Virus record (IMG/VR): IMGVR_UViG_3300026519_000005
Span: 1-38,186 of that record
Source of the DNA: a virus
Strand: one strand, 5' to 3'
DNA length: 38,186 nucleotides
Shown here: piece after piece, positions 4,551 through 31,474 of the stretch
Position numbering within the stretch: the stretch's first letter is position 1
How the letters are laid out: every line of letters starts with the position of its first letter
Position numbers and translations under genes: made by a program
Notes under the pieces: generated by a model
Databases searched by the model: none
Told to the model about the DNA's origin: nothing
Seen by the model: only the letters and a program-made list of their open reading frames with translations

Positions 4551-4586
4551 TAAATATAAATGAGAACGGTATGATAATAAAGGACA
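4551..4586 (-). promoter_or_regulatory. Late promoter A (holin)
   Basis: Minus strand: TGTCCTTTA (4586-4578), 19 nt, TATATTTA (4558-4551). It shares the motif and spacing of the other late promoters. The predicted leader is about 50 nt, unlike the leaderless units. Confidence 0.6.
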
Positions 4587-4676
4587 TCAGTGTGAAGTGT
4601 TAAAAAAACGGTAATATTTGGTTTTTATATTAATGTTTTTTAATATGTGCTTGATTTATATATAAAGTTATTTCCT

Positions 4677-4940
4677 ATGAGAAAACAAGCACTAATGCTA
4701 CGAGTAGCCTACTTGCAGCGGGTGCTCCGAGATGCTCATTGTTTTGAACATCGCTTAATTTTTCTCACCCAATTGTACGTATCTATGAAAGAATTACATG
4801 ATTGTTTCGGAGATAACCTTATTGAAAAAATGGATGATCTTTTACAGCCTGAGCAGACTCAACATTTGAATTGCGCAGGTAACTCTCAAAGCTCTTTAAC
4901 GATCGCCAACCACCAAGATCAGCTATTAGTTGATGACTAA
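4677..4940 (+). CDS. Possible small protein, 87 aa, overlapping the integrase end
   Basis: Frame starting MRKQALMLRVAYLQRVLRDAH. The first 55 residues read like a real helical protein and fill an otherwise empty interval. The last 40 codons lie opposite the integrase 3' end (122-nt convergent overlap) and look less protein-like. No clear promoter precedes it. I do not recognise it; it may be a small regulator or a chance ORF. Confidence 0.35.
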   Translation: MRKQALMLRVAYLQRVLRDAHCFEHRLIFLTQLYVSMKELHDCFGDNLIEKMDDLLQPEQTQHLNCAGNSQSSLTIANHQDQLLVDD

Positions 4941-5988
4941 GTCCTTTGAGACTTAGATTGGTTGCTGCGCTCCTTCTGGCTGTGTGTGTTGTAACGAAAT
5001 TCCATTTAGGCGCAACTTTGCCGTCTTGGCTAACTTCCTGATGGATACCAGCTAAGGCGGCAATTGTTTTTAATTTCCTGTTGGCTTCCTGGTTGGTATC
5101 TCCTGATAGGTTGAAGCTTCTACGCTCTAGTATTTCCCAAGCGATTGGTTTAACAGGGATGACGCTCTTCTCTCCTGTTTTTCCTGCAATATTCTGATAG
5201 TATCTTTGTCCTTCTATTTCAAAGAAGTGGTCACGTCTGATCTTTACGCTGTCACCATACCTCAAAATAAAGTAGTAGCTTATAAGGAAGCGGTCACGTT
5301 CACGTTCTAGGCTGGTGTTGTGGCTCAAGCTAACGTCTCCTATTTGATCTATTTCATCCTGTGTTAGGTAAATCTTCTCTGTGCGTGTAGCATGGCGTTT
5401 AAAATCTCTATGCTCATGTATTTTGCAATCATGAAGCCCTCGAACTTTAGCGACACTCATTGCGGCCTTCACCATTTTGATGTGTTTAGAGAATCCTCCG
5501 TTTAGTTTGCTACCATTTGAGAGCATAAAAACCTTGAAATTTTCATAAAAGGCCATGTTTATTTCTTCGAACGCAATATCTGTTCGGCCTTCACTTTTCA
5601 TCCATGCATAAAAACGCCTGCGAAATGATTGGTAATTCTTAACGGTACCAGCCTTAAACTCTGTGATGCCGTTACCCATATCTTCGACATAGCTATCTAG
5701 GAAAGCTACAAAGCTACCTGATGCCTTTTTGTGCATTCCATTTATTGTTCCACCAGTTATCAGGAATTCAAGGGCGTGGTTTACTTCTTGCTGAATCTTA
5801 GCATTGTAAACAGATGAAAGGGGGTGGCTTTTTTTGACTAACCCTGCTTTAGCATCCCAATCTTTAGGGTGTATTTTTATTTCTAGGGATGTGTACTTTC
5901 GTGTTCCGTTGTGACGAATGTATAATTTTACATCACAAGTACCATCAGCCTGTGGCTCATAAGTCCAGAGTTTAGCTTTTACCGTCAT
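4819..5988 (-). CDS. int: Tyrosine-recombinase integrase, 389 aa
   Basis: Catalyses integration and excision between attP and the host attB. Residues 1-90 are the arm-binding N-terminus with the DVKLYIRHNGTRKYTSL signature of Bacteroidota integrases. About 93-190 is the SAM-like core-binding domain. About 205-385 is the catalytic domain, with Arg243 (ILRYGDS), HTARR (His335, Arg338), GGW at 359-361 in place of the second His, and the nucleophile Tyr370 (SFESYL). Length is normal and nothing is broken. A tRNA-end-like attP lies about 185 nt upstream, so the gene is placed as in a functional integration module. Confidence 0.92.
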   Translation of the reverse strand: MTVKAKLWTYEPQADGTCDVKLYIRHNGTRKYTSLEIKIHPKDWDAKAGLVKKSHPLSSVYNAKIQQEVNHALEFLITGGTINGMHKKASGSFVAFLDSYVEDMGNGITEFKAGTVKNYQSFRRRFYAWMKSEGRTDIAFEEINMAFYENFKVFMLSNGSKLNGGFSKHIKMVKAAMSVAKVRGLHDCKIHEHRDFKRHATRTEKIYLTQDEIDQIGDVSLSHNTSLERERDRFLISYYFILRYGDSVKIRRDHFFEIEGQRYYQNIAGKTGEKSVIPVKPIAWEILERRSFNLSGDTNQEANRKLKTIAALAGIHQEVSQDGKVAPKWNFVTTHTARRSAATNLSLKGLSHQLIADLGGWRSLKSFESYLRNSNVESAQAVKDHPFFQ

Positions 5989-6119
5989 TTCTTAACCGTT
6001 GTGTTTTGTTTCTCAACAAATGCTAAACCAATGTACTACACTTTTGTACAAAAACCTACTTTTAAGTACTATTTAATTATGATTTCATCTAATACACTAA
6101 CGCTTGTGTATCAATAAGA

Positions 6120-6149
6120 AAAGCCCTGACTATTGATAGTCAAGGCTTT
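6120..6149 (-). terminator. Terminator after the tape measure gene
   Basis: AAAGCC and GGCTTT plus TGACTAT and ATAGTCA form a 13-bp stem with one mismatch and a 2-nt loop. On the minus strand it is followed by TTTTCTTATT. It lies about 110 nt past the tape measure stop and would end the last late operon. Confidence 0.6.
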
Positions 6150-6158
6150 ACAGAATTT

Positions 6159-6191
6159 CCGTTTTAAAACGGTAGTGATCCCGACAGGATT
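6159..6191. other. Candidate attP core (tRNA 3'-end-like)
   Basis: Minus strand 6191-6173 reads AATCCTGTCGGGATCACTA, which matches the end of a tRNA: last T-loop bases, T-stem strand CCTGT, acceptor strand CGGGATC and discriminator A. A 14-bp palindrome CCGTTTTAAAACGG (6159-6172) abuts it. Phages with tyrosine integrases often carry such a tRNA end as the crossover site. Short inverted repeats between here and the integrase (around 6041-6115) could be arm sites. The tRNA cannot be named without the host. Confidence 0.5.
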
Positions 6192-6260
6192 ATCATATAT
6201 ATCACATAAAGCTGATTATCAATTAATTAAATTTAATTTTAAAAAAAACTTAACAATTAC

Positions 6261-9182: not shown

Positions 9183-9183
9183 T

Positions 9184-9654
9184 TTACAACTTAATTCGTT
9201 CATCAATAATACCTGGAATCAAAAACCTTAGTTCATCAGCAATCTCTCGTGAGTAGAATTCTGATAATGAATCTGCCAAGTCTTCAATTGCTGGTTTTAA
9301 TACAGGGGCTAACCATGGACGAGCAGCAGCCTTTGCAGCAGCACTATTAACAGGCCTACCTTTACCCACTCCTCTTTCTATGAAAATACCATGCCTCGGA
9401 AATGAAAATCCAAGCCTGTCAAGATCACCTCTTACTTTGTTTAATTTGTAACTAACACTTCTTGTAAGCGGTTTTGCTGCACCCTTTTCTTTAATGTCGC
9501 CTATAACCTTACTTTTTTGATTCAGATCTAAACTGGCCAATTTGAAAAGCAATTGCTTTTTGGTTGCGATAAGCCAAGCTCTTCCTACTACTAATAATCT
9601 CTCTTGATCGATCTCCCTTTTAGTGGTCTTTATATAGACTTTTTGTTGTGCCAT
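9184..9654 (-). CDS. Tail-completion / minor tail protein, 156 aa
   Basis: A basic protein with GIFIERGVGKGRP near residues 89-101 and ARPWLAPVLKPAIEDLADSLSEFYSREIADE toward the C-terminus, a pattern seen in HK97 gp10-like tail-completion proteins. It directly precedes the tape measure gene. Its ATG starts exactly 4 nt after the -7 box of late promoter B, so its mRNA is predicted to be leaderless. Function is inferred from pattern and position. Confidence 0.55.
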   Translation of the reverse strand: MAQQKVYIKTTKREIDQERLLVVGRAWLIATKKQLLFKLASLDLNQKSKVIGDIKEKGAAKPLTRSVSYKLNKVRGDLDRLGFSFPRHGIFIERGVGKGRPVNSAAAKAAARPWLAPVLKPAIEDLADSLSEFYSREIADELRFLIPGIIDERIKL

Positions 9655-9658
9655 TTAC

Positions 9659-9694
9659 GAAAGGTAGGCGTAAAGTGGGGTTGAACGAAGGACA
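9659..9694 (-). promoter_or_regulatory. Late promoter B (tail completion, tape measure)
   Basis: Minus strand: TGTCCTTCG (9694-9686), 19 nt, TACCTTTC (9666-9659), 4 nt, ATG. It faces away from the Dam late promoter; the two -33 motifs are inverted copies separated by 7 nt. Confidence 0.7.
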
Positions 9695-9701
9695 GTAATG
9701 G

Positions 9702-9737
9702 TGTCCTTTATTACATATTGTATTTTTTGTTAATTTG
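9702..9737 (+). promoter_or_regulatory. Late-type promoter of the Dam gene
   Basis: Plus strand: TGTCCTTTA (9702-9710), 19 nt, TTAATTTG (9730-9737), then ATG at 9747. The same motif and spacing as the minus-strand late promoters put the methyltransferase under late control from a divergent, shared control region. Confidence 0.65.
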
Positions 9738-9746
9738 TAATAAAAA

Positions 9747-10538
9747 ATGAAGCCACCATTCAGTTATTACGGGGGCAAGCAGAAACTAGCAAAGCGCATT
9801 ATATCTCTGTTTCCTAAACACACACTTTATGCTGAACCTTTTGTAGGAGGAGGAGCAATTCTTTGGAATAAAGAAAAATCAGAAGTAGAAGTTATTAATG
9901 ATACCAATAGGGAGTTGATCAACTTCTACAGAATGGTACAACAGGAGTTTCCTTCACTAGAAAAGGAGATCGCCATTTCATTACACAGTAGAGACCTGTA
10001 CAGAAAGGCAAGTGTTATTTACAATAACCCTGATATGTTTCCTGAAATCAAACGCGCATGGGCTGTATGGTTACTGGCCAATGAAGGATTTGCAAGTAAA
10101 ATAGATGGTAGTTGGGGCTATGATATTAAGAAAAACCAAACCTCTAAAAAGATAAGAAATAGACGTGATAGTTTCACATTTGATTATGCAATCAGGATTC
10201 AGGATGTACAGATAGAATGTACTGATGCGCTTAGGATAATAAGATCGCGCGATTTTGAAGAGGCTTTCTTCTATTGTGATCCTCCTTATTATAATTCAAA
10301 TTGTGGACATTACGATGGCTATACAATTGAGGATTTTGATATGCTGCTTAAAGCACTTAGTGAGATAGAAGGTAAATTCCTATTAAGCTCATACCCTAGC
10401 GACATCCTAAAGGAGTACACTAAAAAACATGGATGGTATACGATTGAGATTGAACAAAAAGTAACGGTGGCCAGAAAAAAGGCTTATCAAAAAAAGAAGG
10501 TAGAGGTCTTGACTTCTAATTATAATAATACTTTGTAG
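9747..10538 (+). CDS. dam: D12-class adenine-N6 DNA methyltransferase, 263 aa
   Basis: Transfers a methyl group from S-adenosylmethionine to adenine in DNA. Motifs in order: YGGKQKLAKRI (8-18) and AEPFVGGGAI (29-38) for the cofactor, and the catalytic DPPYY (178-182). Order and length match Dam/D12 methyltransferases. It stands alone on the plus strand inside the late region, and its 3' end overlaps the convergent 94-aa gene by 19 nt. It has its own late-type promoter. It may mark or protect progeny DNA; the target site is not readable, and GATC is only the family norm. Confidence 0.88.
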   Translation: MKPPFSYYGGKQKLAKRIISLFPKHTLYAEPFVGGGAILWNKEKSEVEVINDTNRELINFYRMVQQEFPSLEKEIAISLHSRDLYRKASVIYNNPDMFPEIKRAWAVWLLANEGFASKIDGSWGYDIKKNQTSKKIRNRRDSFTFDYAIRIQDVQIECTDALRIIRSRDFEEAFFYCDPPYYNSNCGHYDGYTIEDFDMLLKALSEIEGKFLLSSYPSDILKEYTKKHGWYTIEIEQKVTVARKKAYQKKKVEVLTSNYNNTL

Positions 10539-10804
10539 TTATTATTATTTCTATTTCTTGATTTTTTACGTTCTTCTAATTTTTCTAATGAATCAATATC
10601 TCCGTTTTGTGCATTTTCAAATAATCGTAAATCAATAACATATTGTGACCTATGTAGCCCTTTGTTATAAAGGCTTTTAAAATCATTCGATAATATATCC
10701 GATTCTTCCCACCCTAAAACATCTGCACACATTTTTGTTGAATATTCTAATGCGCCTAAATTAATAATTATTTCTTTTTCTTCCTCTTTTATAATTCTGA
10801 CCAT
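10520..10804 (-). CDS. Small helical protein, 94 aa (terminase-small-subunit-like?)
   Basis: EIIINLGALEYSTKMCADVLGWEESDI looks like a helix-turn-helix with a wing, followed by RSQYVIDLRLFENAQNGDIDSLEKLEERKKSR. This layout resembles small DNA-binding proteins of Bacteroidota phages and small terminase subunits. Its start overlaps the end of the PLD-like gene by 16 nt, so the two are co-translated. The terminase role is uncertain because the large subunit lies 13 kb away next to another candidate. Confidence 0.45.
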   Translation of the reverse strand: MVRIIKEEEKEIIINLGALEYSTKMCADVLGWEESDILSNDFKSLYNKGLHRSQYVIDLRLFENAQNGDIDSLEKLEERKKSRNRNNNNYKVLL

Positions 10805-12446: not shown

Positions 12447-12447
12447 A

Positions 12448-13854
12448 TTATTTAGGTTGAATAGTTGTATTGCTCTCCACCATGCCGCTCTCTTCGTTGT
12501 TGGTGGTAGTATGGTAAGTGTGGTCAATGAAGAAAGTAACGTCCCAATCAGGATCCGTCTGTGCATTGAATCGAGCTATCCAGTTCAATGGTTCTAATAC
12601 GACTAATTGATCCATGGTGTTTAATGTGATACCAGTATTAAAGCTTTCACGCTGATCTGAGCCTGATCCTGCACCCATCTTTCCACCTTGTGGTGATAAG
12701 CCTACTTGACTAGGGTGTAAACCTAATCCTTGTACAATTTGCGCATCCGCCTTGTCACTACTAGGCACCCATGCGCTTTCTTTAATCTTATTATCCACAG
12801 GAATGATCTCTATTTTTCCTACAGGTTGACGTGTATTATGATCCTCACGATAAACTGTTGCGATACTGCTATAAATATTATCAACTCCACGCAGACTACT
12901 ATTGATGTTAGTGATTAGCTGATCTATTTTAGCATTACGTTTCTTATCAGTCATGCCCTGCCAATCGCTGTATCTTATTTCAAAATAAGATTCAGGAATT
13001 AGGATGTGATACTTCAAACGAAGCTGATTGTGCTGCATGCTACTGATGATTTTGGGAACGGATGCACTAACATCTATCCATCCATCTTTTGCAAAAAGCC
13101 CAAGCCATAATGGACGGGCGTAGTAATCTGTGCCAGGCGTTGGAAAATAACTATGCCAAGCAAATTTCCAGCCTGTGATTTTATTCAAGAAATCATCTTC
13201 ATTTACCCAGTCAAATAGCTGAATGCTTTTTATTTGCTTTGATGTTGGCACATAACCATCTGCAAACCTAGGACTGTAGTATAAGTTTTCAATTGCCCCC
13301 GTCTTTTTGTTTTGAACGCTTAGACGGCTAAATTCTGCCTTCTTATGGTAGATTCCTGTGATCTGATTCCTTGCATTATTGAAAATCATTTCACTAAAGC
13401 AGTTCATGTAAAATCTATAATCAATCAATTGGGCAGGAAGCCAATTGGTGGCAATTCTATTCTTCGAAAGAAATGATTCTATTTTAGGTGTGAATGCCCG
13501 TGACACTTTTGGACCATCTTGCAACTCTCTATTGTTGTAATAGGCGATTCCATTTCCATACATCATTTGTACCAGCTGGTATATTGCTCTACCAGCCATT
13601 GGTACGCTGTATAGTTTTTCTCTTATTGTAGTAGGCAAACAATCATCTTCACCCCAAGGTGCCCAATCATACCCAGACGTTTTCTCATAAGGCAATATAC
13701 CTACAGTCTCCTGCGGGCTGCTGTCAACTTTTGGTCGTCTTGATGTGCCTGTGCCAGCATTCATTTTAACATCGTAAAATGATGCACTAGGCAGTATGCA
13801 CTTCGTTACTCCTCCATCTTCTACAATATGCGCTGTGATGTATTTACCTTCCAT
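12448..13854 (-). CDS. Portal protein, 468 aa
   Basis: The C-terminal third has the portal-like run DAQIVQGLGLHPSQVGLSPQ, GGKMGAGSGSDQRESFNTG and LEPLNWIARFN. The N-terminal part has RAIYQLVQMMYGNGIAYYNN. Length suits a ring subunit at the capsid vertex through which DNA is packaged. It lies 2 nt after the 99-aa gene and 9.4 kb downstream of the terminase in transcription order, separated by the baseplate and fibre genes, which is unusual since portal normally follows terminase directly. Confidence 0.7.
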   Translation of the reverse strand: MEGKYITAHIVEDGGVTKCILPSASFYDVKMNAGTGTSRRPKVDSSPQETVGILPYEKTSGYDWAPWGEDDCLPTTIREKLYSVPMAGRAIYQLVQMMYGNGIAYYNNRELQDGPKVSRAFTPKIESFLSKNRIATNWLPAQLIDYRFYMNCFSEMIFNNARNQITGIYHKKAEFSRLSVQNKKTGAIENLYYSPRFADGYVPTSKQIKSIQLFDWVNEDDFLNKITGWKFAWHSYFPTPGTDYYARPLWLGLFAKDGWIDVSASVPKIISSMQHNQLRLKYHILIPESYFEIRYSDWQGMTDKKRNAKIDQLITNINSSLRGVDNIYSSIATVYREDHNTRQPVGKIEIIPVDNKIKESAWVPSSDKADAQIVQGLGLHPSQVGLSPQGGKMGAGSGSDQRESFNTGITLNTMDQLVVLEPLNWIARFNAQTDPDWDVTFFIDHTYHTTTNNEESGMVESNTTIQPK

Positions 13855-13856: not shown

Positions 13857-14156
13857 TTAGGGCATGACACTTTCGCCATTGAATTTAATGATTAGAGGAA
13901 TGTGTAATGTTCTGATTTGATCAACAGGGTGGCCATCAACAAGCACCTGCACGTTTCGGGTGTGCTTTTTCTTCTTAGGAGCTCGTTTTTTTTCATTAGA
14001 TGTTAGTGGTCTGCTGTTCAATTTATCGTTCAAAACAACCGCTTGGATTCTTTTAACATCGCCGCCTGTCCTACGGTTTTCATCAAATGTGATGTACTCG
14101 CAAGTAAATGGCTTACCATTATTCATGGCATCTAACATGGTTCTGAATGTAAACAT
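13857..14156 (-). CDS. Hypothetical protein, 99 aa, first gene of the portal operon
   Basis: Basic, with a KKRAPKKKKHTR stretch in the middle and short hydrophobic ends (LHIPLIIKFNG). No family recognised. Its ATG is exactly 4 nt after the -7 box of late promoter C, so translation should begin at or within a nucleotide or two of the mRNA 5' end. Two nucleotides separate it from the portal gene. Confidence 0.6.
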   Translation of the reverse strand: MFTFRTMLDAMNNGKPFTCEYITFDENRRTGGDVKRIQAVVLNDKLNSRPLTSNEKKRAPKKKKHTRNVQVLVDGHPVDQIRTLHIPLIIKFNGESVMP

Positions 14157-14160: not shown

Positions 14161-14196
14161 GCAAGATAGATGCTTAATAGATGCTTAGAAAGGACA
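14161..14196 (-). promoter_or_regulatory. Late promoter C (portal operon)
   Basis: Minus strand: TGTCCTTTC (14196-14188), 19 nt, TATCTTGC (14168-14161), 4 nt, ATG. It sits in the 43-nt gap between the 298-aa and 99-aa genes. Confidence 0.72.
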
Positions 14197-17802: not shown

Positions 17803-18042
17803 TTATTTTTCTAGCTTTAAAAAAACGAGTGGTGAAATTGTAAAAACTATATCCATCCACGACCAAAAGCTATTAAGCCATAACACATCAGCCGCTTCTT
17901 TTCCTAAGGCCACAAAGATTATAATCATAAATGTGGTTGGTTGATTAAGTCTCTTAAGTACTAGCACCAAAACAGCACCAACAATTAAATGCCGCAAATA
18001 GCCATTTGGGTCACTTGGCCAGTAACCCAATGGACTAATCAT
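17803..18042 (-). CDS. Small membrane protein, 79 aa (YfiM-like?)
   Basis: Two to three hydrophobic segments (LIVGAVLVLVL, FMIIIFVALGKEAADV, WMDIVFTISPLVFL). The GKEAADVLWLNSFWSWMDI stretch recalls the KE-x-D...SWKD pattern of YfiM/DUF2279-type proteins. Its ATG overlaps the stop of the fibre gene by 8 nt, so translation is coupled. A lysis-accessory role is possible because no endolysin or spanin is recognisable elsewhere. Confidence 0.5.
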   Translation of the reverse strand: MISPLGYWPSDPNGYLRHLIVGAVLVLVLKRLNQPTTFMIIIFVALGKEAADVLWLNSFWSWMDIVFTISPLVFLKLEK

Positions 18043-20533
18043 ACCACCTTATTTTTACTTTTTCACCGCCTGTGAATGCTGTGTTGAATGTGATTATGCC
18101 TGTTGATGCGACGTAGGTGTAGTATTCTGCTGCGCCTTCTGTTTTTTCTAGTCCGTCAACTGTTAATACTAGGTTTGCGCTTGCGCTTGGGAGTTTGCTG
18201 TTTGCTGTTGTATATGTTGTTTGTGCTGCGGTGGCTGTGAAGGTTTCTTGATTCCAAATCGGGGCGCTGTACGAATATGGGTGAACTACTGTTATATCGA
18301 CATTTGAATCAGTTGCTGTTTGATTGCTATATGTACCATTTATTCTAGCCGTAGCTCCAGGTACACTAGATTGAATTGCAAGTTGACCTGATTGTAATTT
18401 CAAATAGCTGGTTATTAAATCTGGTGAGCCTTCTGCGTTTGTTATAAGTATAGCACAAGTATCCGTCTTTACATCTATAAAGCTATTTGATATGAAAACC
18501 CCACTAGTTTCATCAACTATTATTGCAGGGGTATTCTCACATTCTATTGTTGCGTTTTTAATAATATAGGTCATTTGTTCTGACGTTACACTATTGTCAT
18601 TCTTATTAGAAAACAAAGGTGAGTCTTTTATAAAAAAATTGCCTGTTAAAACCATCTTGTTTCCTAAGTACTCTGGTCTACGTACAGAATAACCGTTACT
18701 AAATCTTATCCCATCTAGTCTCGCATTCTTAATATCGAATAAGAACGTACTATTTATACATTTTCTTGATGGATTAGAGTAATTACCGCGAACGAAAAAA
18801 TCCTGAGAACCAGGTGTTGTTTTCCTCACATTCAGGTTATCACAAGTGAGCGAAAACAAAGCGTCTACCATGTATATATTATCAATTGAGTAGGCAGTTT
18901 GGTCTACATTTAACGTTCCGAATTTTAATTGGATGCTACCACCTTTAACGGAGGGGTATGCAAAAGTTAAACTTGAACGAGGCCAATCCGAAGTGTTAAA
19001 CGTTATTTTCAAATCGTTTGTTATCGTATCATTTGTCCAACCTCGAATGAACCAAACATTTTCTAGTTTCAGATAATCCCCACTCAGATTAAACTCTTTA
19101 AATCCTCCAACCGTCCATGCGGTATTGAAAGAAGAAGAAGAACTTCCTACTAAAAAACTATCTACTTCTACTGTAAACCTAGTATCAGATTGTTTTCCAG
19201 AAGGCCCGACTTTTCCTAGAGAGGACCCAGTGTAAAGGGAATAATCTATCGTCGCTTTCCCTAGAAATTTTATCGTCACCCCAACTGTGTCGTAAAACAT
19301 AGGAATAGCGGCAGAAGTAGCCAAATTAGTGTATCTTACTCCTTTGGCATTAATATAGGTTAGATTTTTCGTAGACATCAAACTAGATGCCATTTTATCT
19401 CCAGAAGGAAACAATATGTTACCAATTGAACTGCCTACAATATCCATTAGGAAATCCCCATCTAGGATAACAATTATATCATTTAAAACCGCCGAATCTC
19501 TTGCTGCCCATGGGTCAGCCCATGTACGCCCTAAGTCTCCTTTCGTAGCTGTAATATTATTGCCGAAACGTTGGGATACGTATAGAAAATCACTTACAGA
19601 TATTTCTTTTAACGATAGCTCATCCAAAGCAGTTTTTACAGTTTCTGAAATCAAATTGCCGTCACTATTATCGTACCCAACATTAACAGCCTCCATGTCT
19701 GAACGCCTCATAACGTCATTACTGCTTTGAATTACATTTTGTGCGTCAGGAAAAATGTAATGCTCGATATTAAATCCATCGTTCAATAGAAAATCACCTG
19801 AAGAGTTTTCAGATATAGTCCAAACAGAATTGTCTGAATTTGTATTTGCAAAACGTAAGAAACCTAGGTTAGTCAAAAATGCAGCATTTGCATTTGAACC
19901 TGTTGCTAGGACTTGTTCTATATTTTGCGAACTATTTGATATTCCTGTTTCCAATTCCTGCAAAGCATTCTTAACGGTTGTGTTATCACTGATTGTACTA
20001 CCTGTAAAAGTCCCTAAATCTGTCGAAAAATAAGGTACACCCTCTAAGGTGTAATTGTTCGCTAGTGCTTGATCTAACACGTTTATATTGCTGAATGCTT
20101 CGTTTAGTGCTGTTTCTACGTTGTCGCCTGTTATTAAGCCTGCTGTGTCTTCCACAGGAACATCAGCTGCATCTTGTATTTCATTAAGGGGGTCATTGTC
20201 TAATACAGTAAAGCTAAGCGTTCCTAATATGTCATCATAAACCACCGATAATCCGTTGTGTGGACTGCTCGTAATTAAGTTTGATACAATGTCTTCTACA
20301 TTTTCAGAGCTAAGGGAATTGATTTCAACCACATCAACCCATTGGTTATCTATCCTATCCCAAACATACACCTTTTTTAGATTAATTGAGTAAGAGACCT
20401 CAACTCCTCGTGGAGGGTTTGCGTCAGTTGTTGGTGCATCTTGAAAATACCAAATACCTGAACTTTTAATTGGTGATTGCGAAAATGCTGAAATAGAAAA
20501 CATCAGCATAAAAAATAGTAATAAATTTTTCAT
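18035..20533 (-). CDS. Tail fibre / adhesin-like protein with a signal peptide, 832 aa
   Basis: The N-terminus MKNLLLFFMLMFSISAFSQ is a textbook Sec signal ending in the FSQ cleavage context common in Bacteroidota exports. Residues about 100-320 carry three copies of a VxTALxE-like repeat (NVETALNEAFSNI, TVKNALQELETGI, TVKTALDELSLK). The middle (350-750) is rich in Asn, Ser and Thr with alternating hydrophobics, as in beta-helix fibres. The last 60 residues form a compact domain (LVLTVDGLEKTEGAAEYYTY...KVKIRWYD). Position between tail genes argues for a virion fibre; the signal peptide argues for export. The two are not easily reconciled. Confidence 0.6.
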   Translation of the reverse strand: MKNLLLFFMLMFSISAFSQSPIKSSGIWYFQDAPTTDANPPRGVEVSYSINLKKVYVWDRIDNQWVDVVEINSLSSENVEDIVSNLITSSPHNGLSVVYDDILGTLSFTVLDNDPLNEIQDAADVPVEDTAGLITGDNVETALNEAFSNINVLDQALANNYTLEGVPYFSTDLGTFTGSTISDNTTVKNALQELETGISNSSQNIEQVLATGSNANAAFLTNLGFLRFANTNSDNSVWTISENSSGDFLLNDGFNIEHYIFPDAQNVIQSSNDVMRRSDMEAVNVGYDNSDGNLISETVKTALDELSLKEISVSDFLYVSQRFGNNITATKGDLGRTWADPWAARDSAVLNDIIVILDGDFLMDIVGSSIGNILFPSGDKMASSLMSTKNLTYINAKGVRYTNLATSAAIPMFYDTVGVTIKFLGKATIDYSLYTGSSLGKVGPSGKQSDTRFTVEVDSFLVGSSSSSFNTAWTVGGFKEFNLSGDYLKLENVWFIRGWTNDTITNDLKITFNTSDWPRSSLTFAYPSVKGGSIQLKFGTLNVDQTAYSIDNIYMVDALFSLTCDNLNVRKTTPGSQDFFVRGNYSNPSRKCINSTFLFDIKNARLDGIRFSNGYSVRRPEYLGNKMVLTGNFFIKDSPLFSNKNDNSVTSEQMTYIIKNATIECENTPAIIVDETSGVFISNSFIDVKTDTCAILITNAEGSPDLITSYLKLQSGQLAIQSSVPGATARINGTYSNQTATDSNVDITVVHPYSYSAPIWNQETFTATAAQTTYTTANSKLPSASANLVLTVDGLEKTEGAAEYYTYVASTGIITFNTAFTGGEKVKIRWYD

Positions 20534-22521: not shown

Positions 22522-22522
22522 A

Positions 22523-23059
22523 TTAAAAAGGAGTTTGTCCGCCATCGAGCCAAGCAGGGGCTTGTGCATCTGCCAGGCATACCCTGAAGTAGTTATTCCA
22601 ACTGATAATCGTTCTATATCCACAGTAGCTTGCATCACCTGTGAACCGTATTGGTTGCACGTTGATACTCATTGCCTTGCTGTAGCTATTGCACCATAAT
22701 GGATGGCCTAGCTGGCTATCATTTATTATTCGTTCAATGAATTCGTCATTGGATTTCTCTGCTTTATTGAGTGCTTCATAGTATTGCTCTTCTGTGGCCT
22801 GTCTGTTGCCGTAGTAGTGCGCCAACACCCAGCCGCCAGTGCATCCTTTCATATCATCTGACCCTATTAGACCTACATTATAGGTGTAGTTGATGAGGCG
22901 AAATATGTAACTCTTTTCCTTCACACTAATCCTCATATCTCCAAAGCTATCCTCTATATCTATCATACCAAAGACTTCTTTGTCTGCTGTGTGCAGCAGG
23001 TCAGGGTGCTGTTCAGTCAGGTACTTGAAGTAGTTTTGATATACATCTGCTTGTAACAT
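22523..23059 (-). CDS. Hypothetical protein, 178 aa, first gene of the tail operon
   Basis: An intact ORF whose ATG lies exactly 4 nt after the -7 box of late promoter D. It has five Cys (for example GCTGGW, LWCNSY, SYCGYR) and many aromatics. I see no lysozyme, amidase or peptidase signature. It is followed by the 564-aa gene after 1 nt. Head-tail joining or tail-tip function is possible from position only. Confidence 0.55.
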   Translation of the reverse strand: MLQADVYQNYFKYLTEQHPDLLHTADKEVFGMIDIEDSFGDMRISVKEKSYIFRLINYTYNVGLIGSDDMKGCTGGWVLAHYYGNRQATEEQYYEALNKAEKSNDEFIERIINDSQLGHPLWCNSYSKAMSINVQPIRFTGDASYCGYRTIISWNNYFRVCLADAQAPAWLDGGQTPF

Positions 23060-23063: not shown

Positions 23064-23099
23064 ACAAGGTATGCAGGTAGGTGTGATGTTGAAAGGACA
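23064..23099 (-). promoter_or_regulatory. Late promoter D (tail and fibre operon)
   Basis: Minus strand: TGTCCTTTC (23099-23091), 19 nt, TACCTTGT (23071-23064), 4 nt, ATG. It sits in the 198-nt gap after the terminase. That gap also holds a GCGAAT/ATTCGC hairpin at 23186-23217, which may end terminase transcription. Confidence 0.75.
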
Positions 23100-23257
23100 G
23101 CATTGAGAGCAGCGACTGCATATATCCCTATTTTTGCCCAAAGACGCGCGCTTATAGCGACAGGCGCAGCAGGTTAAATCTGTAAGCGAATGTTAAAAAT
23201 AAGACTTAAATATTCGCATTAATAACATTATCAACAATATACATATTGAATAAAACA

Positions 23258-25394: not shown

Positions 25395-26111
25395 TTATAA
25401 GTTAAGTTCTTCTTTTATTGTGACCATTTCTGATTTTTTTGCGGCCATTTCTGATTCGTACTTTTCCTGTTCAGTCGATTCCAGTTCCCCGCCTTTTATC
25501 CAGCCATTGATTTTACTGATGCGCTTGCGTAGATTTTCGTACTTCCTTAATTTGGCAACTGTATCTGCTACTATTCGTTCTTTTCCAGCGACGGGAATAC
25601 TTCCATTTATTTGCCATTCCCTGATGGCACCATATACTTCATCCAACTCAGGTTCTATCTTGGTCATCAGTTGCTTGGCTAACTGATATAATTTTACTTT
25701 AAATTTTGTAGGGTTCTCTGTATTGGCATAAGCTTTCATTTGCCCATGAATATCGCTCTCTAGTCCTTTAAGGTGCTTACCTCTTTGTCTAAGCGAAAGA
25801 ATTGCCGTTGGTTCATTGTCTGTATCTGAATCGTATTGTTTCTTTTTGTATTTTGATTTTAAATTTCCTGAAACAATTATCAACGATCCTCTTAGTCGGT
25901 CGTAAGTGTCTGGTGCAATAAAATCCTGATAAGCAGCTTGTTCAAACTCGCTTAAATATTGTGAAAGCCCTGCTTTTTTATAGAGCTCTAGCCCCATTTT
26001 AAAGCCCCCTTCGGTCTTTAACCACAATTCAATTTGATCTTTCAAAATGACAGGACATTTAGGTTGCAAGAAAATTAAAAAAAATGGCAGAAACATCGCT
26101 GCTACTGCCAT
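25395..26111 (-). CDS. Helical protein upstream of terminase, up to 238 aa
   Basis: The conserved-looking part starts near DQIELWLKTEGGFKMGLELYKKAGLS (from residue 25), a start pattern seen in Bacteroidota phage proteins. The hydrophobic first 20 residues (MAVAAMFLPFFLIFLQ) run through a T8 stretch and may not be translated; a TTG at residue 15 is an alternative start. The rest is coiled-coil-like. It abuts the next gene with no gap. Possibly a packaging or scaffolding partner. Confidence 0.5.
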   Translation of the reverse strand: MAVAAMFLPFFLIFLQPKCPVILKDQIELWLKTEGGFKMGLELYKKAGLSQYLSEFEQAAYQDFIAPDTYDRLRGSLIIVSGNLKSKYKKKQYDSDTDNEPTAILSLRQRGKHLKGLESDIHGQMKAYANTENPTKFKVKLYQLAKQLMTKIEPELDEVYGAIREWQINGSIPVAGKERIVADTVAKLRKYENLRKRISKINGWIKGGELESTEQEKYESEMAAKKSEMVTIKEELNL

Positions 26112-26135
26112 TCAATCTTCCCTATTGTTTGAAAA

Positions 26136-26348
26136 TTATTTGCCTTTTGAAGGAGGATCAGCCTTAGCATCTTTACGTGCCAGTTTTTTAAAACCTCTTT
26201 GGATAAGGCTATCTGCCTGAGCAGGCGTTAATGTTTTAAGGTTTACAATTCCGAATTTTCCAAAATTCTGACGCGTACCACCTAACCATCCAACTAGTTT
26301 GAACTCCTTAGATAGCTCTTGGCTTAATACTGCATTATTGTTACTCAT
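26136..26348 (-). CDS. Small structural-module protein, 70 aa
   Basis: Contains WLGGTRQNFGKFGIVNLKTLTPAQADSLIQRGF, a short motif like that of proteins that follow tail-tube or capsid genes, then a basic tail (KKLARKDAKADPPSKGK). It lies between the 189-aa tail-tube candidate and the helical pre-terminase gene. Function unknown. Confidence 0.5.
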   Translation of the reverse strand: MSNNNAVLSQELSKEFKLVGWLGGTRQNFGKFGIVNLKTLTPAQADSLIQRGFKKLARKDAKADPPSKGK

Positions 26349-26384
26349 ATTACTACATTGAAAAGTTGAATGAAACTAGATTGA

Positions 26385-26954
26385 TTACGGGTTTGGAGTG
26401 ATATTAATACCATGCGTGTCAGCATTATACAAAAGTGAAGAATAGCCCGTATTGGCCATTGCACTCATTTCATATCCTACTTTGTCGCCTCCGCTGCCAC
26501 CAGTGTATGGTTTGATAAAAACAGGGTTATCTAAATCGCCTACAACATGAAAACTACCATCTTGAGTTGGAATTATAGCAATAAGGCAACCGCTATGTGC
26601 AGTAAGGGCATCAAGGTTTTCTTGTTGAATGGCTTTGTTTCCAAGAAGGAAAAAATCAACTTCCTGAATATGTTTCAATGATCCAATTTCACCCTCACCT
26701 ATTTCACGTAATTGACCCGTATCAACTAAGATGTCCATTGATCGCCAATAGCCAACTCCTGATGTGGCAACAAAAGCAAATGGTTCATCATATATTTTCG
26801 TGTCTCCTGGGGCCGCTACTGCGGGTGCAATAACTAGATCTGCACGAGTAGCAGGCATACTTTGCAGCTCCTCTTTGAGTGTCCAGTATAATTTTGATTT
26901 AGTGCCAGGTGGTCGTTTTTCGCCACAAGCAAGCAGCATATCATTTAAACTCAT
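26385..26954 (-). CDS. Tail tube / structural protein, 189 aa
   Basis: Beta-rich protein (ADLVIAPAVAAPGDTKIYDEPFAFVATSG, CLIAIIPTQDGSFHVVGDLDNPVFIKPYTGGSGG). The size and the late GGSGGDKVGYE segment suit a major tail or head-tail structural protein. It shares design features with the 159-aa product at 29808-30287, which also carries a WIIGSLDAPL-type segment, so the two may be distant relatives. Confidence 0.5.
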   Translation of the reverse strand: MSLNDMLLACGEKRPPGTKSKLYWTLKEELQSMPATRADLVIAPAVAAPGDTKIYDEPFAFVATSGVGYWRSMDILVDTGQLREIGEGEIGSLKHIQEVDFFLLGNKAIQQENLDALTAHSGCLIAIIPTQDGSFHVVGDLDNPVFIKPYTGGSGGDKVGYEMSAMANTGYSSLLYNADTHGINITPNP

Positions 26955-27008
26955 ATTTATGTATTAATTGAAATTTTATAATAAATTCAAACGCCTAGCA
27001 AGAGCAGA

Positions 27009-27431
27009 CTAATCTGCTCCTACTGGCACCAACCAGCCAACATTCTTTGCAGCACAAGCTGACAAGAAAGCCACCGCTTTTTTCTTGTCCCAATCTTCAA
27101 GGATTGAGTTGTTTTCAGCTTCTTCTTCAGATAATTTGCCTTTCGATGCAAGGCTCAATAAAGCAGAACTTTCTACAATATCGCCATTATCAAGTCGGAT
27201 GAAAGGATGGCCATCTTTTACTTTCAAGGATTTCTTGATAGCTTTACCTCCTTTTATAGGGATAATCGTAACAGTCACTTCACCAGTTGTTTTATGCAAT
27301 GGTTTCTTTCCTGTTTGGTATTCTTTGTGAACAGCCGCTATCCTTTTAGCTGATTCATCACCAAGTCGAGAAATGTCTTTTTTCAAGTTATAATTTTCTT
27401 CTTGGAGTGCTTTGATTTCTTCAGTAGTCAT
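27009..27431 (-). CDS. Head-module protein, 140 aa
   Basis: Short coiled coil at the N-terminus (MTTEEIKALQEENYNLKKDISRL), then a beta-like domain (EVTVTIIPIKGGKAIKKSLKVKDGHPFIRL). It follows the capsid gene by 38 nt. It may be a head decoration or completion protein; no firm family. Confidence 0.5.
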   Translation of the reverse strand: MTTEEIKALQEENYNLKKDISRLGDESAKRIAAVHKEYQTGKKPLHKTTGEVTVTIIPIKGGKAIKKSLKVKDGHPFIRLDNGDIVESSALLSLASKGKLSEEEAENNSILEDWDKKKAVAFLSACAAKNVGWLVPVGAD

Positions 27432-27469
27432 TTTATTGATGTTATGTTGACAAAAAAGGTTAATCAGTA

Positions 27470-28435
27470 CTACGCCTGATCATTCACAAATGTGTGCAAG
27501 CAGGTCTCGAAGTTGAAGAAACGGTAAATTTCTGCAAACACTTTCAACTGACGATCAAACTCCTGAAAACGAAACTGGAAGTAATCTGGGAAGCCTTTAC
27601 GCTTTCCAACAATCATACTTTCATGGTTATCAAAAGTGCAAATCATACGATCACTACCTTCCATTGCTGTACGGCCTATAATCATTTTATTAAAATGATC
27701 TACTTTGAGGTACAAATTATCTTGCTGTTCTTCATTCACTTTACGAGTTGGGTGTAAAACTTGATAACGATCAGCATATTTTTGAGCATTCGTCTTGCTC
27801 ATTTCAATCTTACCTTTTTTGTACCTGTAAGCCATTGGCAACGCTTTACAAAAGTCTCTAACTTGTGTAACCATCGTTGCCTCCACAAGAGCACCTGTAT
27901 TGATAGGAACAAGTCGGCCATCACTAATGTGAGTAGTGATTTGTGTTCCTAGGCCATCAAATGACTGTAAAACAGTACCAGGTACTCCAGCGACAGGGTT
28001 AACACGAACGCCTGAGTAACTCGCCTGATTCAGTTCTTCACCCAGTTGAGGAAGAACATGTGCGCCCATGATGTAACCAGCATAAGTGCTTTTTATTTCG
28101 GCAGGGTTTGGCGTAAACCAGTTGCATTTCCACTTATTGAAAAAGTTTTCCAATTGTTCAGCAGTAAACAACAAATCGACTTTCGCAACCTGCAATGAAC
28201 TGTCGATACCATCGAAGCTTTCTGTGTTATTAGGAGTGAAAGTTGATTGATAAGGCTGCAATAAAGAGCTTATTCCAACCTCTTGTCCTGTGTAAGAATG
28301 GTCAACACTTACACTTGGTAAGTCTTTATCAAATTCAAGCTCTTGCTTGACAGTTTGAGAAATCTTATTGCTGTACTTGGTACAGAATTGATTGAGGCCA
28401 GCTGCCGTTCCAGCTATGGTTACAGTATGAGGCAT
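27470..28435 (-). CDS. Major capsid protein, 321 aa
   Basis: Immediately follows the S49 protease gene, where a HK97-type capsid is expected. The sequence has an N-terminal helical segment, EFDKDLPSVSVDHSYTGQEVG, a long acidic loop, and a C-terminal FPDYFQFRFQEFDRQLKVFAEIYRFFNFET run like P-domain strands. No cross-link residues can be assigned. The call rests on size, order and composition, not on a recognised motif. Confidence 0.7.
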   Translation of the reverse strand: MPHTVTIAGTAAGLNQFCTKYSNKISQTVKQELEFDKDLPSVSVDHSYTGQEVGISSLLQPYQSTFTPNNTESFDGIDSSLQVAKVDLLFTAEQLENFFNKWKCNWFTPNPAEIKSTYAGYIMGAHVLPQLGEELNQASYSGVRVNPVAGVPGTVLQSFDGLGTQITTHISDGRLVPINTGALVEATMVTQVRDFCKALPMAYRYKKGKIEMSKTNAQKYADRYQVLHPTRKVNEEQQDNLYLKVDHFNKMIIGRTAMEGSDRMICTFDNHESMIVGKRKGFPDYFQFRFQEFDRQLKVFAEIYRFFNFETCLHTFVNDQA

Positions 28436-28497
28436 TGTTTACCTGTTTTAATTTTTTAAAATGTCGTTGCCTGTAATTCCTTTTAATTAATCTATTA

Positions 28498-29763
28498 TTA
28501 TGAAATGATAACAGAATCAATTGCAGCCGTTGCCGCCTCTAATTCGTCCAGTTCTTTAAATTCGGATTCTTTTTTCCCAGCGATTGGATCAATAGGGTCG
28601 CCTTCGCTATGTGGTCGTGTTGGACCAGCTCCTGGCTTTCCTCCAATTCTATCGAGTTCAGTTTCATTCAATGCAACTTTATCAGAAAGTTTTGTAAGAT
28701 CATTAGACATTTCAGTCATCTTAGTAGAAAGGTCTCCTAAGTTTCTTTGAATGGCCTCCAGTTTGTCTTCTTCAACAGGAATTTCACTTTCTAATACCAT
28801 TCTTTTTTCAATTTTCGATAGTTCATCTTCTCGTAAGAATGCACCGCCATCTTGTAATTGTAACTTGTAACCTAAAACTGCTTCAATACGTGTCATATTA
28901 GTTGAAATATTTTGCTGACTTGAATTGTTAGCCAACTTATTTACTTGATTAATTGCTTCATTGAATGTCATTATACCATCAATCAATCCTAAATTGATTG
29001 CTTCTTTTGACATATATACTTTACCTTTGAATACATCACTTTCGTGAATATTCGGTCGCATTTCCTTTACTGTGTTAATGAATCTTTGTGCATAAGGATT
29101 TAAAAATCCTTTCTTTATCAATTCGTACTCTCCGTCTCTAGCTTTTATAAAATCATCGTTTTTCAATGTACTTTGGTCTGCATATACTTCGTGTAAGGTG
29201 ATGCCTTGTTCTTCATAAAGTTTTCGCAAATCCATGAAGCTTATCATCACACCAATACTTCCAACAACATCTGTTTGCTCACTTGCATAAATTTCATCTG
29301 CCGCAATGGATATATAGTAAGCAGCACTAGCACAAGTGCCGTTATACAAAGCGACAATAGGCTTCGTTATTTCTAATTTTAAATAACGAACAACCGTTTC
29401 AAGGTTTGTTCCTTGTCCTCCTCCGCTATCAATTTCTAATAAGTGACCTAATATATTTGATTGCTGGTCAGCCTTCTTCATTTGTTTCATTAAGGATTCA
29501 GTTCCATAATTACACCAACCATCATATTTCGTGATCGGACCAGTAATCGGGAATACAGCTACACTTCCACTCGGCGCATTCGCAAAATTTGAATAAGAAG
29601 TCTGCATATTAGAATGATAGGCGAATGGTGTTTTACCTTTTTCACTATCTGCAAAGTTTACATCTTCACCTTTTGCCATACGAAGTACCTTTGGCAACCA
29701 AGCATCTTTGGTTGCTGGGTCAACCATCCATGGTTCATTTAGTACTGCTCTTAGTAAATTCAT
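28498..29763 (-). CDS. S49 (SppA/ClpP-fold) head maturation protease fused to a scaffold-like tail, 421 aa
   Basis: Cleaves the scaffold during capsid maturation. The S49 core spans about 65-280: EIDSGGGQGTN (110-120), catalytic Ser146 in GTCASAAYYI, DVVGSIGV (165-172), and a downstream Lys (STLKNDD, Lys201) as the likely general base. From about 320 the protein becomes a charged coiled coil (EEDKLEAIQRNLGDLSTKMTEMSNDLTKL) with a Gly/Pro linker, like the scaffolding part in lambda C/Nu3. Its ATG is 4 nt after late promoter E. Confidence 0.88.
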   Translation of the reverse strand: MNLLRAVLNEPWMVDPATKDAWLPKVLRMAKGEDVNFADSEKGKTPFAYHSNMQTSYSNFANAPSGSVAVFPITGPITKYDGWCNYGTESLMKQMKKADQQSNILGHLLEIDSGGGQGTNLETVVRYLKLEITKPIVALYNGTCASAAYYISIAADEIYASEQTDVVGSIGVMISFMDLRKLYEEQGITLHEVYADQSTLKNDDFIKARDGEYELIKKGFLNPYAQRFINTVKEMRPNIHESDVFKGKVYMSKEAINLGLIDGIMTFNEAINQVNKLANNSSQQNISTNMTRIEAVLGYKLQLQDGGAFLREDELSKIEKRMVLESEIPVEEDKLEAIQRNLGDLSTKMTEMSNDLTKLSDKVALNETELDRIGGKPGAGPTRPHSEGDPIDPIAGKKESEFKELDELEAATAAIDSVIIS

Positions 29764-29767
29764 GCTT

Positions 29768-29803
29768 GCAATTTCTTATCTATTAGTAACCTATGAAAGG
29801 ACA
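29768..29803 (-). promoter_or_regulatory. Late promoter E (head and packaging operon)
   Basis: Minus strand: TGTCCTTTC (29803-29795), 19 nt, GAAATTGC (29775-29768), 4 nt, ATG. The -7 box is the weakest match, but the -33 motif and distance to ATG are exact. Confidence 0.68.
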
Positions 29804-29807
29804 CCCC

Positions 29808-30287
29808 CTAAAGTGTTGGCTTATAACCATACATTGGATGTGGGATTTTTGCTGACCATTCTATGTCATATCTGTTTTTACTACCATCTATCGCAGCCTG
29901 ATATTGAAATGATAATGGAGCGTCTAAAGAGCCTATGATCCAAGGTGTGCCTTCCTTAGAAGTGATTCTTAGCAAAAAACGATGACGAGACATTTCTGCT
30001 AGCGTTCCTGTTGATACAGGATTCATTTTAAGCGTTCTACCTGCGGCCTGTACTTCCCAGTAGGAGCCAGCAGCGGAAGGTTTACTATTTTCTTTTACTA
30101 GATCACCAAATGGGATAATTGGCGTTTTCAACCATCCTCCCTGAATAAAAGGTATCTCATATTGCCAATTGTGGATAGAATTGATTAACTTGTTGTAAGC
30201 TTCTCTATCTATCCAAGCAATTGGAGCGTATTCAATAGATTTTATTCCTGGTAAAACGCGACCACAGAATGCTGCTAATTCGATCAT
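29808..30287 (-). CDS. Structural-like protein, 159 aa
   Basis: Beta-rich with GSYWEVQAAGRTLKMNPVSTGTLAEMSRHRFLLRITSKEGTPWIIGSLDAPLSF. The ITSKEGTPWIIGSL segment parallels the IPTQDGSFHVVGDL segment of the 189-aa protein. Start at ATG 30287, 4 nt after late promoter F. Function unknown; head or tail component suggested by regulation and neighbours. Confidence 0.5.
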   Translation of the reverse strand: MIELAAFCGRVLPGIKSIEYAPIAWIDREAYNKLINSIHNWQYEIPFIQGGWLKTPIIPFGDLVKENSKPSAAGSYWEVQAAGRTLKMNPVSTGTLAEMSRHRFLLRITSKEGTPWIIGSLDAPLSFQYQAAIDGSKNRYDIEWSAKIPHPMYGYKPTL

Positions 30288-30291
30288 AACA

Positions 30292-30327
30292 CAAGATTAG
30301 GTTTAATAACATAACAAAAAAAGGACA
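30292..30327 (-). promoter_or_regulatory. Late promoter F
   Basis: Minus strand: TGTCCTTTT (30327-30319), 19 nt, TAATCTTG (30299-30292), 4 nt, ATG. Its T-rich -33 motif doubles as the U-tract of the terminator at 30328-30349. Confidence 0.68.
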
Positions 30328-30349
30328 GCCCCTTACTAAAGTAAGAGGC
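30321..30349 (-). terminator. Intrinsic terminator overlapping late promoter F
   Basis: Minus strand GCCTCTTAC pairs with GTAAGGGGC (9 bp, one G-U wobble only in this direction) around TTTA, followed by TGTCC and seven T. It would end transcripts of the 161-aa gene just as the next late promoter begins. Confidence 0.55.
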
Positions 30350-30380
30350 CGTGCATTTACAAAACAACGGTTAAAATAAA

Positions 30381-30866
30381 TCAACTAATAAGGATACCAG
30401 CTGATATTTTACTTTTTCGATAACGCTGAATGCCTTTTTTTAATGCATCGAAACTGATGTCATCAACGATATCTAATTCATGTATAAAAATCTTAATGGT
30501 ATCAGCCTCATTGATTTTAATAGCTGAATTTGCTTCAATTCTATCCATTAATATTTCTCTGAGGTGATTCCTTAAGAAGGAATTAAAGAGTCTTATGTTT
30601 TCTGCACTTAGGAAACATCTTCGTGTTCCGTTGAGCCGCCTTTCGTTTATCGCGAAATAAAGGCGATCATCATACTCTTTGAATTCTTCATTTGGTCGCG
30701 GATCTGCCCTTATTTTACCTTCTAGTAATGAGCCTAGAAATAACCCGATGCAACCGTAACCTGTTAACATTAAGACACCTTCTTCAGGAAGTTGCTCTCG
30801 CCAAATTGCAAACTTACGTAAGTAGGTGATCGTAGGAATCGAACTTTTTATAATCATCTGGTGCAT
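30381..30866 (-). CDS. Hypothetical late protein, 161 aa
   Basis: Mixed helical protein with a hydrophobic patch (EGVLMLTGYGCIGLFLGSLLEGKI, about 29-52) and a basic C-terminus (KKGIQRYRKSKIS). No family recognised. The first ATG lies inside a 6-bp hairpin (GGTGCA-AAA-TGCACC), which could limit initiation; ATG at residue 4 is an alternative. It is the second gene of the unit driven by late promoter G. Confidence 0.5.
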   Translation of the reverse strand: MHQMIIKSSIPTITYLRKFAIWREQLPEEGVLMLTGYGCIGLFLGSLLEGKIRADPRPNEEFKEYDDRLYFAINERRLNGTRRCFLSAENIRLFNSFLRNHLREILMDRIEANSAIKINEADTIKIFIHELDIVDDISFDALKKGIQRYRKSKISAGILIS

Positions 30867-30897
30867 TTTGCACCCCTGAGCTTCACTTAGGTACTAG

Positions 30898-30925
30898 GAG
30901 CGACCATGCGAGGTCGCTCTTTTTT
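30898..30925 (+). terminator. Intrinsic terminator, plus direction
   Basis: GAGCGACC and GGTCGCTC form a perfect 8-bp stem with a 6-nt loop, followed by six T on the plus strand. Both flanking genes run leftward, so it would stop antisense transcription, or serve as a processing hairpin in the leftward mRNA. Confidence 0.6.
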
Positions 30926-31405
30926 CTATGCTGCTTTGTTCAGACGATCAGAAAGTTCAACCAGTTCTCCTTCTTTATTGAAGATAAAACTAATCTCTTG
31001 ATAAATCTCTCTACCTGTTCCTACTAGATCTAAACCGTCAATTATAAGTTGGTAAATTCGAGGAATCGTACTGATAGCCTGTTCAATCAGCATTTCAGTA
31101 GTGTCGTTTTCCAAATCAAACTCTTTGCTGAAGTGTTCGTAAATTTGCTGGCTTTCCTCTTGACTCACATCTTTGAGTTCTTTTAAGGCATCTTTTGCAA
31201 TATCTACAATGTTGCCATATCTAGTTAGACTAAATACGATTTCAACTAACCGAATCCAGTTCTTGGTTCGGATAATTGTTAACACATCTACCAGAAAGGT
31301 GATGATTACTGTAAGGACAAGTTTGATGTTGTCAATACCTAATTCACCATTCTTTTGATAAACGATTCTCAGCGGTGACAATTTTTTGTGACGTAGTTGG
31401 TACAT
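30926..31405 (-). CDS. Membrane-anchored hypothetical protein, 159 aa
   Basis: One clear membrane segment (LVLTVIITFLVDVLTII, about 27-43), then acidic helices (DVSQEESQQIYEHFSKEFDLENDTTEML). It is the first gene of the late region and has late promoter G upstream with a leader of about 27 nt. It could be a second holin-like or lysis-timing protein; nothing in the sequence proves this. Confidence 0.5.
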   Translation of the reverse strand: MYQLRHKKLSPLRIVYQKNGELGIDNIKLVLTVIITFLVDVLTIIRTKNWIRLVEIVFSLTRYGNIVDIAKDALKELKDVSQEESQQIYEHFSKEFDLENDTTEMLIEQAISTIPRIYQLIIDGLDLVGTGREIYQEISFIFNKEGELVELSDRLNKAA

Positions 31406-31438
31406 GACTTGTGTGTTAAGTTATTAAATACTTGAACC

Positions 31439-31474
31439 ACAAGTTCGCACCAATTGGCTACTCACGAAAGGACA
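31439..31474 (-). promoter_or_regulatory. Late promoter G
   Basis: Minus strand: TGTCCTTTC (31474-31466), 19 nt, GAACTTGT (31446-31439). The ATG is 33 nt beyond the -7 box, so this unit is not leaderless. The rest of the 31406-31689 gap holds AT-rich sequence, a motif relic at 31530-31538 and the hairpin at 31639-31669. Confidence 0.65.

Follow-up and report, generated by a model that had tools for sequence, protein, structure and literature searches.

A phage-specific two-box promoter in phages of the Bacteroidota, with predicted leaderless late mRNAs and a candidate activator

How phages of the Bacteroidota turn on their virion and lysis genes is the question raised by the virus record IMGVR_UViG_3300026519_000005, whose full 38,186 bases were analyzed here and are referred to as the window. 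A first-pass annotation, made from the letters alone, had described seven minus-strand sites in which a 9-nt motif (TGTCCTTTC or a close variant) is followed after 19 nt by a -7 box, and had read them as phage-specific late promoters, five of which would give leaderless mRNAs. In the papers that we searched, we came across no account of how Bacteroidota phages control their late genes, and a search for TGTCCTTT together with Bacteroid- returned unrelated papers only. From the sequence comparisons given below, we regard it as virtually certain that this promoter class is real, with a fixed two-box geometry, specificity for a phage group and start codons at +40. The window encodes an integrase, a tape measure protein, a terminase, a head maturation protease and a holin, and carries at its ends a 127-base direct terminal repeat, taken as the assembly overlap of a circular genome. 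By TerL, its nearest named relatives are Polaribacter phage Leef_1 (37% identity) and 'Microcystis' phage Mea-Yong924-1 (28%).

A two-box element at fixed spacing

All seven minus-strand sites were recovered (4586, 9694, 14196, 23099, 29803, 30327 and 31474), and at 9694, 14196, 23099, 29803 and 30327 the distance from the motif's first base to the ATG is indeed exactly 40 nt. An eighth site, on the plus strand at 9702, stands back to back with 9694 and 45 nt before the ATG of a methyltransferase gene (9747-10538). The boxes are as follows, the upstream 9-nt motif being called the -33-type box:

30319..30327, minus strand: -33-type box TGTCCTTTT, first of the predicted late promoters, 54 nt past the stop of the candidate activator gene
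30292..30299, minus strand: -7 box TAATCTTG; 4 nt further on is the ATG of gene 29808-30287, predicted to be leaderless
29795..29803, minus strand: -33-type box TGTCCTTTC, with -7 box GAAATTGC at 29768-29775
23091..23099, minus strand: -33-type box TGTCCTTTC, with -7 box TACCTTGT at 23064-23071
14188..14196, minus strand: -33-type box TGTCCTTTC, with -7 box TATCTTGC at 14161-14168
9686..9694, minus strand: -33-type box TGTCCTTCG, with -7 box TACCTTTC at 9659-9666
4578..4586, minus strand: -33-type box TGTCCTTTA, with -7 box TATATTTA at 4551-4558, upstream of the holin gene
31466..31474, minus strand: -33-type box TGTCCTTTC, with -7 box GAACTTGT at 31439-31446, preceding gene 30926-31405
9702..9710, plus strand: eighth site, TGTCCTTTA-N19-TTAATTTG, with the -7-like TTAATTTG at 9730-9737

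The fixed place of the -7 box was upheld, while its proposed wording, TAnCTTG, was not: nAnnTTTG or nAnnTTGC, a variant of the host -7 element, fits better, and the boxes at 29803 and 31474 start with GA instead of TA. A scan of the window with a strict TTTG version of the pattern gave no match, because the boxes in the window are mostly TTGC or TTGT variants. The arrangement TGTCCTT-N33-ATG occurs five times in the window versus 0.13 expected, and at most twice in any of 100 dinucleotide shuffles. TGTCCTTTC with no more than one mismatch was found 27 times versus 11.2 expected; the box alone is thus mildly over-represented, a weak signal, and it is the fixed geometry that carries the evidence. 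An exact copy of TGTCCTTTC at +1493 is a chance match, lying within an opposite-strand gene.

Relatives were gathered by a TerL search with a five-sequence profile, which yielded 63 IMG/VR loci and 42 bacterial-genome loci, nearly all from Bacteroidota; the protease, used as an IMG/VR search probe, found no relatives. In Leef_1, Mea-Yong924-1 and the closer IMG/VR relatives, late genes were preceded by the same element with the same spacing. Among 195 coding-strand TGTCCTT sites of the gathered loci, AnnTTTG stood at offset 29 in 67, with at most two at each other offset, and an ATG stood at offset 40 in 62. Removal of sites at least 70% identical to one another left 824 non-redundant YGTCCTW sites in the relatives, where AHHTTTG occupied offset 29 in 112 (no more than four per other offset) and ATG occupied offset 40 in 142 (versus about 13 per other offset). 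When all 7-mers were ranked by the presence of an ATG at +40, with the window excluded, TGTCCTT (105/439) came first and TGTCCTA (53/174) second by a wide margin, the background being 1.6%. The consensus of the two-box element is [T/C]GTCCT[T/A]TY-N19-nAnnTTTG. A start codon (ATG or GTG) was placed at exactly +40 in 116 of 255 promoter-like non-redundant sites, and reading frames of at least 50 codons open from 105 of these 116 starts (91%), compared with 26% for random ATGs.

We looked for relatives that keep the genes and lose the motif, and saw the opposite: the two-box promoter is kept at 26–65% TerL identity, with its spacing and often before the same genes as in the window. For the gene before the portal gene, the distance from motif to start is 40 nt in the window, in Leef_1 (2475 to 2515), in Mea-Yong924-1 (13088 to 13128) and in Porphyromonas phage019a (motif at 19667, start at 19707), the last being one of two TGTCCTTT sites of that phage with an annotated start exactly 40 nt downstream (19707 and 28457).

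Inverted pairs of the form AAGGACA-N7..9-TGTCCTT were observed between divergent genes in the window (9686-9710) and in loci L027, L032, L038 and L103 near 9355, and look like two late promoters with one common centre. The pair at 9694/9702 and those in several relatives speak for another reading, in which the TGTCCTT sites are operators of a phage repressor (AAGGACA-N-TGTCCTT dyads) and not activator sites. We consider this highly improbable: most sites are single half-sites in one orientation and at one fixed distance from the -7 box, and the dyads fall between divergent genes, where two back-to-back promoters explain them.

The element in phage and host genomes

IMG/VR was also scanned in an unbiased manner, by the promoter pattern, with the same pattern carrying a reversed -33 box as the control. 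The exact 17-base pattern gave at least 120 matches versus 9 for the control, and among the matches listed, structural proteins of the phage family were found in about 70 of 80 loci. In 296 Bacteroidota genomes drawn evenly, by contrast, there were 45 matches versus 74 for the reversed control, hence no excess, from which we conclude that the host does not use the element; the term 'phage-specific' of the first-pass annotation is borne out. The element appears to be common to a group of phages infecting Bacteroidota of the sea, soil, gut and mouth.

Since the element is nearly identical in phages of hosts from Flavobacteriia through Bacteroidia, a host alternative sigma factor or activator, conserved across the Bacteroidota and exploited by the phages, might also be its reader. 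This is very unlikely in our view, given the lack of excess in host genomes and the clustering of motif matches inside the prophages of those genomes that hold them. The motif letters, moreover, drift in concert within a phage, as expected of a phage-encoded reader: in one phage, all eight minus-strand sites are CGTCCTTT plus one base, mostly a pyrimidine (CGTCCTTTY), and a clade in Tenacibaculum and Polaribacter hosts (Flavobacteriia) has TGTCCTATT at nearly every site.

Several observations concern individual related loci. In many of them the motif often comes directly after a T-run (ggcggggcttttttgTGTCCTTTT; for example, L080 at 3482 and L092 at 3605), which gives the impression of a fusion between the terminator of one unit and the late promoter of the next. 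In Porphyromonas phage032a (L315), the annotated start of gene 26279-26713 lies upstream of the late promoter at 26302, and the gene is predicted to start at the in-frame ATG at 26342 instead. The TerL of Mea-Yong924-1 (L004, MZ447863) is 88–89% identical to those of L079 and L106 in Sphingobacteriaceae assemblies, and this phage has Bacteroidota-type promoters; it probably infects not Microcystis but a member of the Bacteroidota that lives alongside it. Equal TerL match values were obtained for L066, a prophage in an 'Alphaproteobacteria' metagenome-assembled genome (MAG), and L067, in a Saprospiraceae MAG from the same pond series, and the Alphaproteobacteria assignment of L066 is probably a binning error.

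Promoter reading and the predicted transcription start

In Flavobacterium johnsoniae, the -7 element is TAHHTTTG and transcription starts 4 or 5 nt past it (PMC6847099). The phage ATGs stand 4 nt past the -7 box, at this published distance, which supports the claim of leaderless mRNAs by inference. Numbered from an ATG start, the -7 box spans -12 to -5, and the TGTCC element lies at -40 to -32, the place of the host -33 element; the phage promoters have [T/C]GTCCT[T/A]TY instead of the host -33 TTTG. Compared with promoters of the Bacteroidota primary sigma factor (-33 TTTG / -7 TAnnTTTG), the phage promoters share the AnnTTTG of the -7 element, the spacing class and a start predicted 4–5 nt downstream (PMC6847099), but they are dominated by a strong 9-bp -33-type element. 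Moreover, in the 255 promoter-like sites AnnTTTG holds a fixed place, whereas the base at -12, a nearly invariant T in the host, is C in 132 and T in 50, as expected of activator-dependent promoters.

Given that host boxes start transcription 4–5 nt downstream, about 45% of these promoters should yield leaderless mRNA. Ordinary TAHHTTTG boxes without TGTCC in the same phages showed no ATG peak at +4, and leaderlessness would therefore be tied to the TGTCC promoter class. Where no start codon is nearby, the base at +40 is A in 59% of sites, which is weak support because the region is A-rich in general. In the window, the sites at 4586 and 31474 predict leaders of approximately 50 and 30 nt, respectively. 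That the promoters are late, as had been proposed, finds support in the genes they head (head, tail, portal and lysis). The genes concerned, with their neighbors, are:

29808..30287, minus strand: virion-type gene headed by the 30327 promoter, its family present in 32 of 33 genomes
28498..29763, minus strand: head maturation protease (phrog_53, 1.9e-54), predicted leaderless
27470-28435: major capsid protein gene, following the protease gene 28498..29763
22523..23059, minus strand: gene headed by the 23099 promoter, predicted leaderless, present in 14 of 25 family genomes
13857..14156, minus strand: small gene directly before the portal gene, predicted leaderless
12448..13854, minus strand: portal protein, homologous to the portal annotated in Leef_1
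9184..9654, minus strand: gene before the tape measure protein gene, predicted leaderless
3982-4494: holin gene, about 50 nt downstream of the start predicted for the 4586 promoter
9747-10538, plus strand: DNA methyltransferase (phrog_56)
30926-31405: gene preceding the candidate activator gene, downstream of the 31474 promoter
30381..30866, minus strand: candidate late-promoter activator, 161 aa, of no known family or fold

Start codons that coincide with the predicted transcription start differ from host practice, as 87% of F. johnsoniae leaders are longer than 10 nt (PMC6847099). In Bacteroides thetaiotaomicron, too, only about 3.7% of leaders are shorter than 10 nt (PMC7366714), a rarity that favors another explanation, namely that the mRNAs start upstream or have processed 5' ends and that the 40-nt spacing is a translation signal. 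We think this quite unlikely, because the offset between motif and -7 box is no less fixed at sites that lack a start codon than at those that have one; the position of the ATG at the published start distance and the preference for A at +40, with the caveat on composition given above, likewise argue for a transcription start on the ATG.

A candidate activator and the proposed scheme

Early-gene families were censused by iterated profile search in 33 genomes. The family of window gene 30381-30866 was the only near-universal non-virion family (30/33), and a Leef_1 seed recovered the same family independently. Fuller records of two of the three missing genomes both have it, and the third is the chromosomal locus L283, which is not a phage. 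L283, a second chromosomal locus with two motif matches in a Saprospiraceae genome, was suspected to be a satellite; this was rejected as it has no phage genes, and it looks like repeated chromosomal sequence.

Essentially every complete genome of the phage family has the gene, and it usually stands just ahead of the first late promoter. The motif is absent from the start of the gene in all members of the family. Its stop is separated from the next motif by 3–96 nt in many phages, and by 54 nt in the window, a placement of the Ltr/RinA type, while in Mea-Yong924-1 and a Sphingobacteriaceae prophage the gene follows the primase gene in the early region, away from the virion genes. A late-type promoter was also seen 286–650 nt upstream of the gene in the window (31474) and in G025, G033, G009 and G011, which could provide positive feedback. 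The AlphaFold2 model of the protein is confident (pLDDT 90.4, pTM 0.85). A fold search of the PDB with this model returned nothing usable (best E 0.95), and in BFVD the only confident match was the Leef_1 homologue (6.4e-7, TM 0.72). Pfam and PHROG gave no convincing family for 29 members. P11 and R148 form two near-invariant columns.

Homologues of the candidate in Bacteroides and Porphyromonas phages led to the finding of the same promoter there. Both protein and promoter are present in two outgroups by TerL, the human faecal phage MT835542 (3e-11) and the B. thetaiotaomicron phage BT-TP2 (1e-10), whose gp8 is annotated as 'transcriptional regulator' and whose predicted promoters are at 17977, 25811 and 32316. 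Homologues of gp8 were found in 18 Porphyromonas phages, and the three examined each have TGTCCTTT-N19-box sites. As these phages share structural ancestry with the family, they extend the association only, and do not separate the protein from other shared genes. From its distribution and placement, we think it reasonably likely that the product of gene 30381-30866 is the activator of the late promoters.

The same promoter might have a different phage-encoded reader, either a LuxR/GerE-type protein, as present in Leef_1 and Mea-Yong924-1, or a divergent sigma factor. A GerE domain is found in the Mea-Yong924-1 protein (6.4e-16), and related proteins occur in several phages, Flavobacterium phage 6H included; those of L003 (19714-20301), L004 (859-1440) and L312 (44905-45462) have a common N-terminal domain and lie in the early region. 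We judge such a reader unlikely. Of 25 phages only 6 have the LuxR/GerE protein, and the window lacks it, so it was rejected as the universal reader; phage 6H has the protein but not the motif. A phage sigma factor was rejected as well, with sigma-70 region 2 (PF04542) in 0 of 24 phages and working positive controls. The search for a single-subunit RNA polymerase (PF00940), with 0 of 24 phages matching, was uninformative because the control genomes likewise gave no match.

Returning to the candidate activator, we consider it probable that the sites are phage-specific late promoters used by the host RNA polymerase with a phage factor, most likely the 161-aa protein, and that the mRNAs are leaderless where the start codon lies at 40 nt. 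The host primary sigma factor would read the -7 box nAnnTTTG at -12 to -5. The 9-bp [T/C]GTCCT[T/A]TY at -40 to -32, in place of the host -33 element, would be read by a phage-encoded factor, most likely the product of window gene 30381-30866, which would be expressed ahead of the late genes. Transcription would then start 4–5 nt past the -7 box, and a start codon exactly 40 nt from the motif would give a leaderless mRNA. In this scheme, the sequences themselves show the element, its geometry, its confinement to the phage group and the near-universal occurrence of the protein; the use of the host polymerase, the late timing, the start on the ATG and the binding and activation by the candidate are what we infer.

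Some points weigh against this scheme. Flavobacterium phage 6H, also a TerL outgroup, keeps the structural genes and has a marginal homologue of the candidate (E 2.7e-4), with no motif. The predicted fold of the candidate matches no known DNA-binding protein, and from a gene beside the virion genes one might equally expect a protein of the particle or of its assembly. At more than half of the promoter-like sites +40 is not occupied by a start codon, and leaderlessness is therefore to be seen as common, not general.

By architecture, the scheme resembles the middle promoters of phage T4, where MotA and AsiA act at a 9-bp phage box near -30 that replaces the host -35 element while the host polymerase keeps the -10. 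As in T4, a phage-specific 9-bp box would replace the upstream host element; unlike in T4, the box is at a greater distance upstream, late genes are concerned and there is no known anti-sigma partner. Ltr, RinA and ArpU of Gram-positive temperate phages offer another parallel, being small phage proteins whose genes directly precede the late promoter that they activate, as the candidate would do here. Ltr of phage phi13 was proposed to use four direct repeats ahead of a single promoter (PMC13123087), whereas here one half-site is found at many promoters and the candidate has no detected family match. The closest classified relatives are the Helgolandviridae (Polaribacter phage Leef_1), with homologues of the protease, portal and capsid proteins, the same promoter and the candidate activator; the Leef_1 record does not name the promoter and labels the activator homologue, Leef1_39, as hypothetical.

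There is, in our estimate, an even chance that these elements together form an undescribed late-transcription system across the phylum, with a small activator of new fold that captures the host polymerase at a 9-bp -33 element and structural genes that, contrary to what the host does, are largely expressed from leaderless mRNAs. A single motif and a single protein family provide a testable scheme for marine, soil, gut and oral Bacteroidota phages. The promoter marks operons, corrects start codons in poorly annotated phages and aids host assignment, and it offers a phage-dependent expression tool for Bacteroides and Flavobacterium. If true, leaderless late mRNAs would provide the phages with a separate way of having their messages translated in a phylum where Shine-Dalgarno signals are not used, and would raise the question of how ribosomes without such signals choose a bare 5' AUG.

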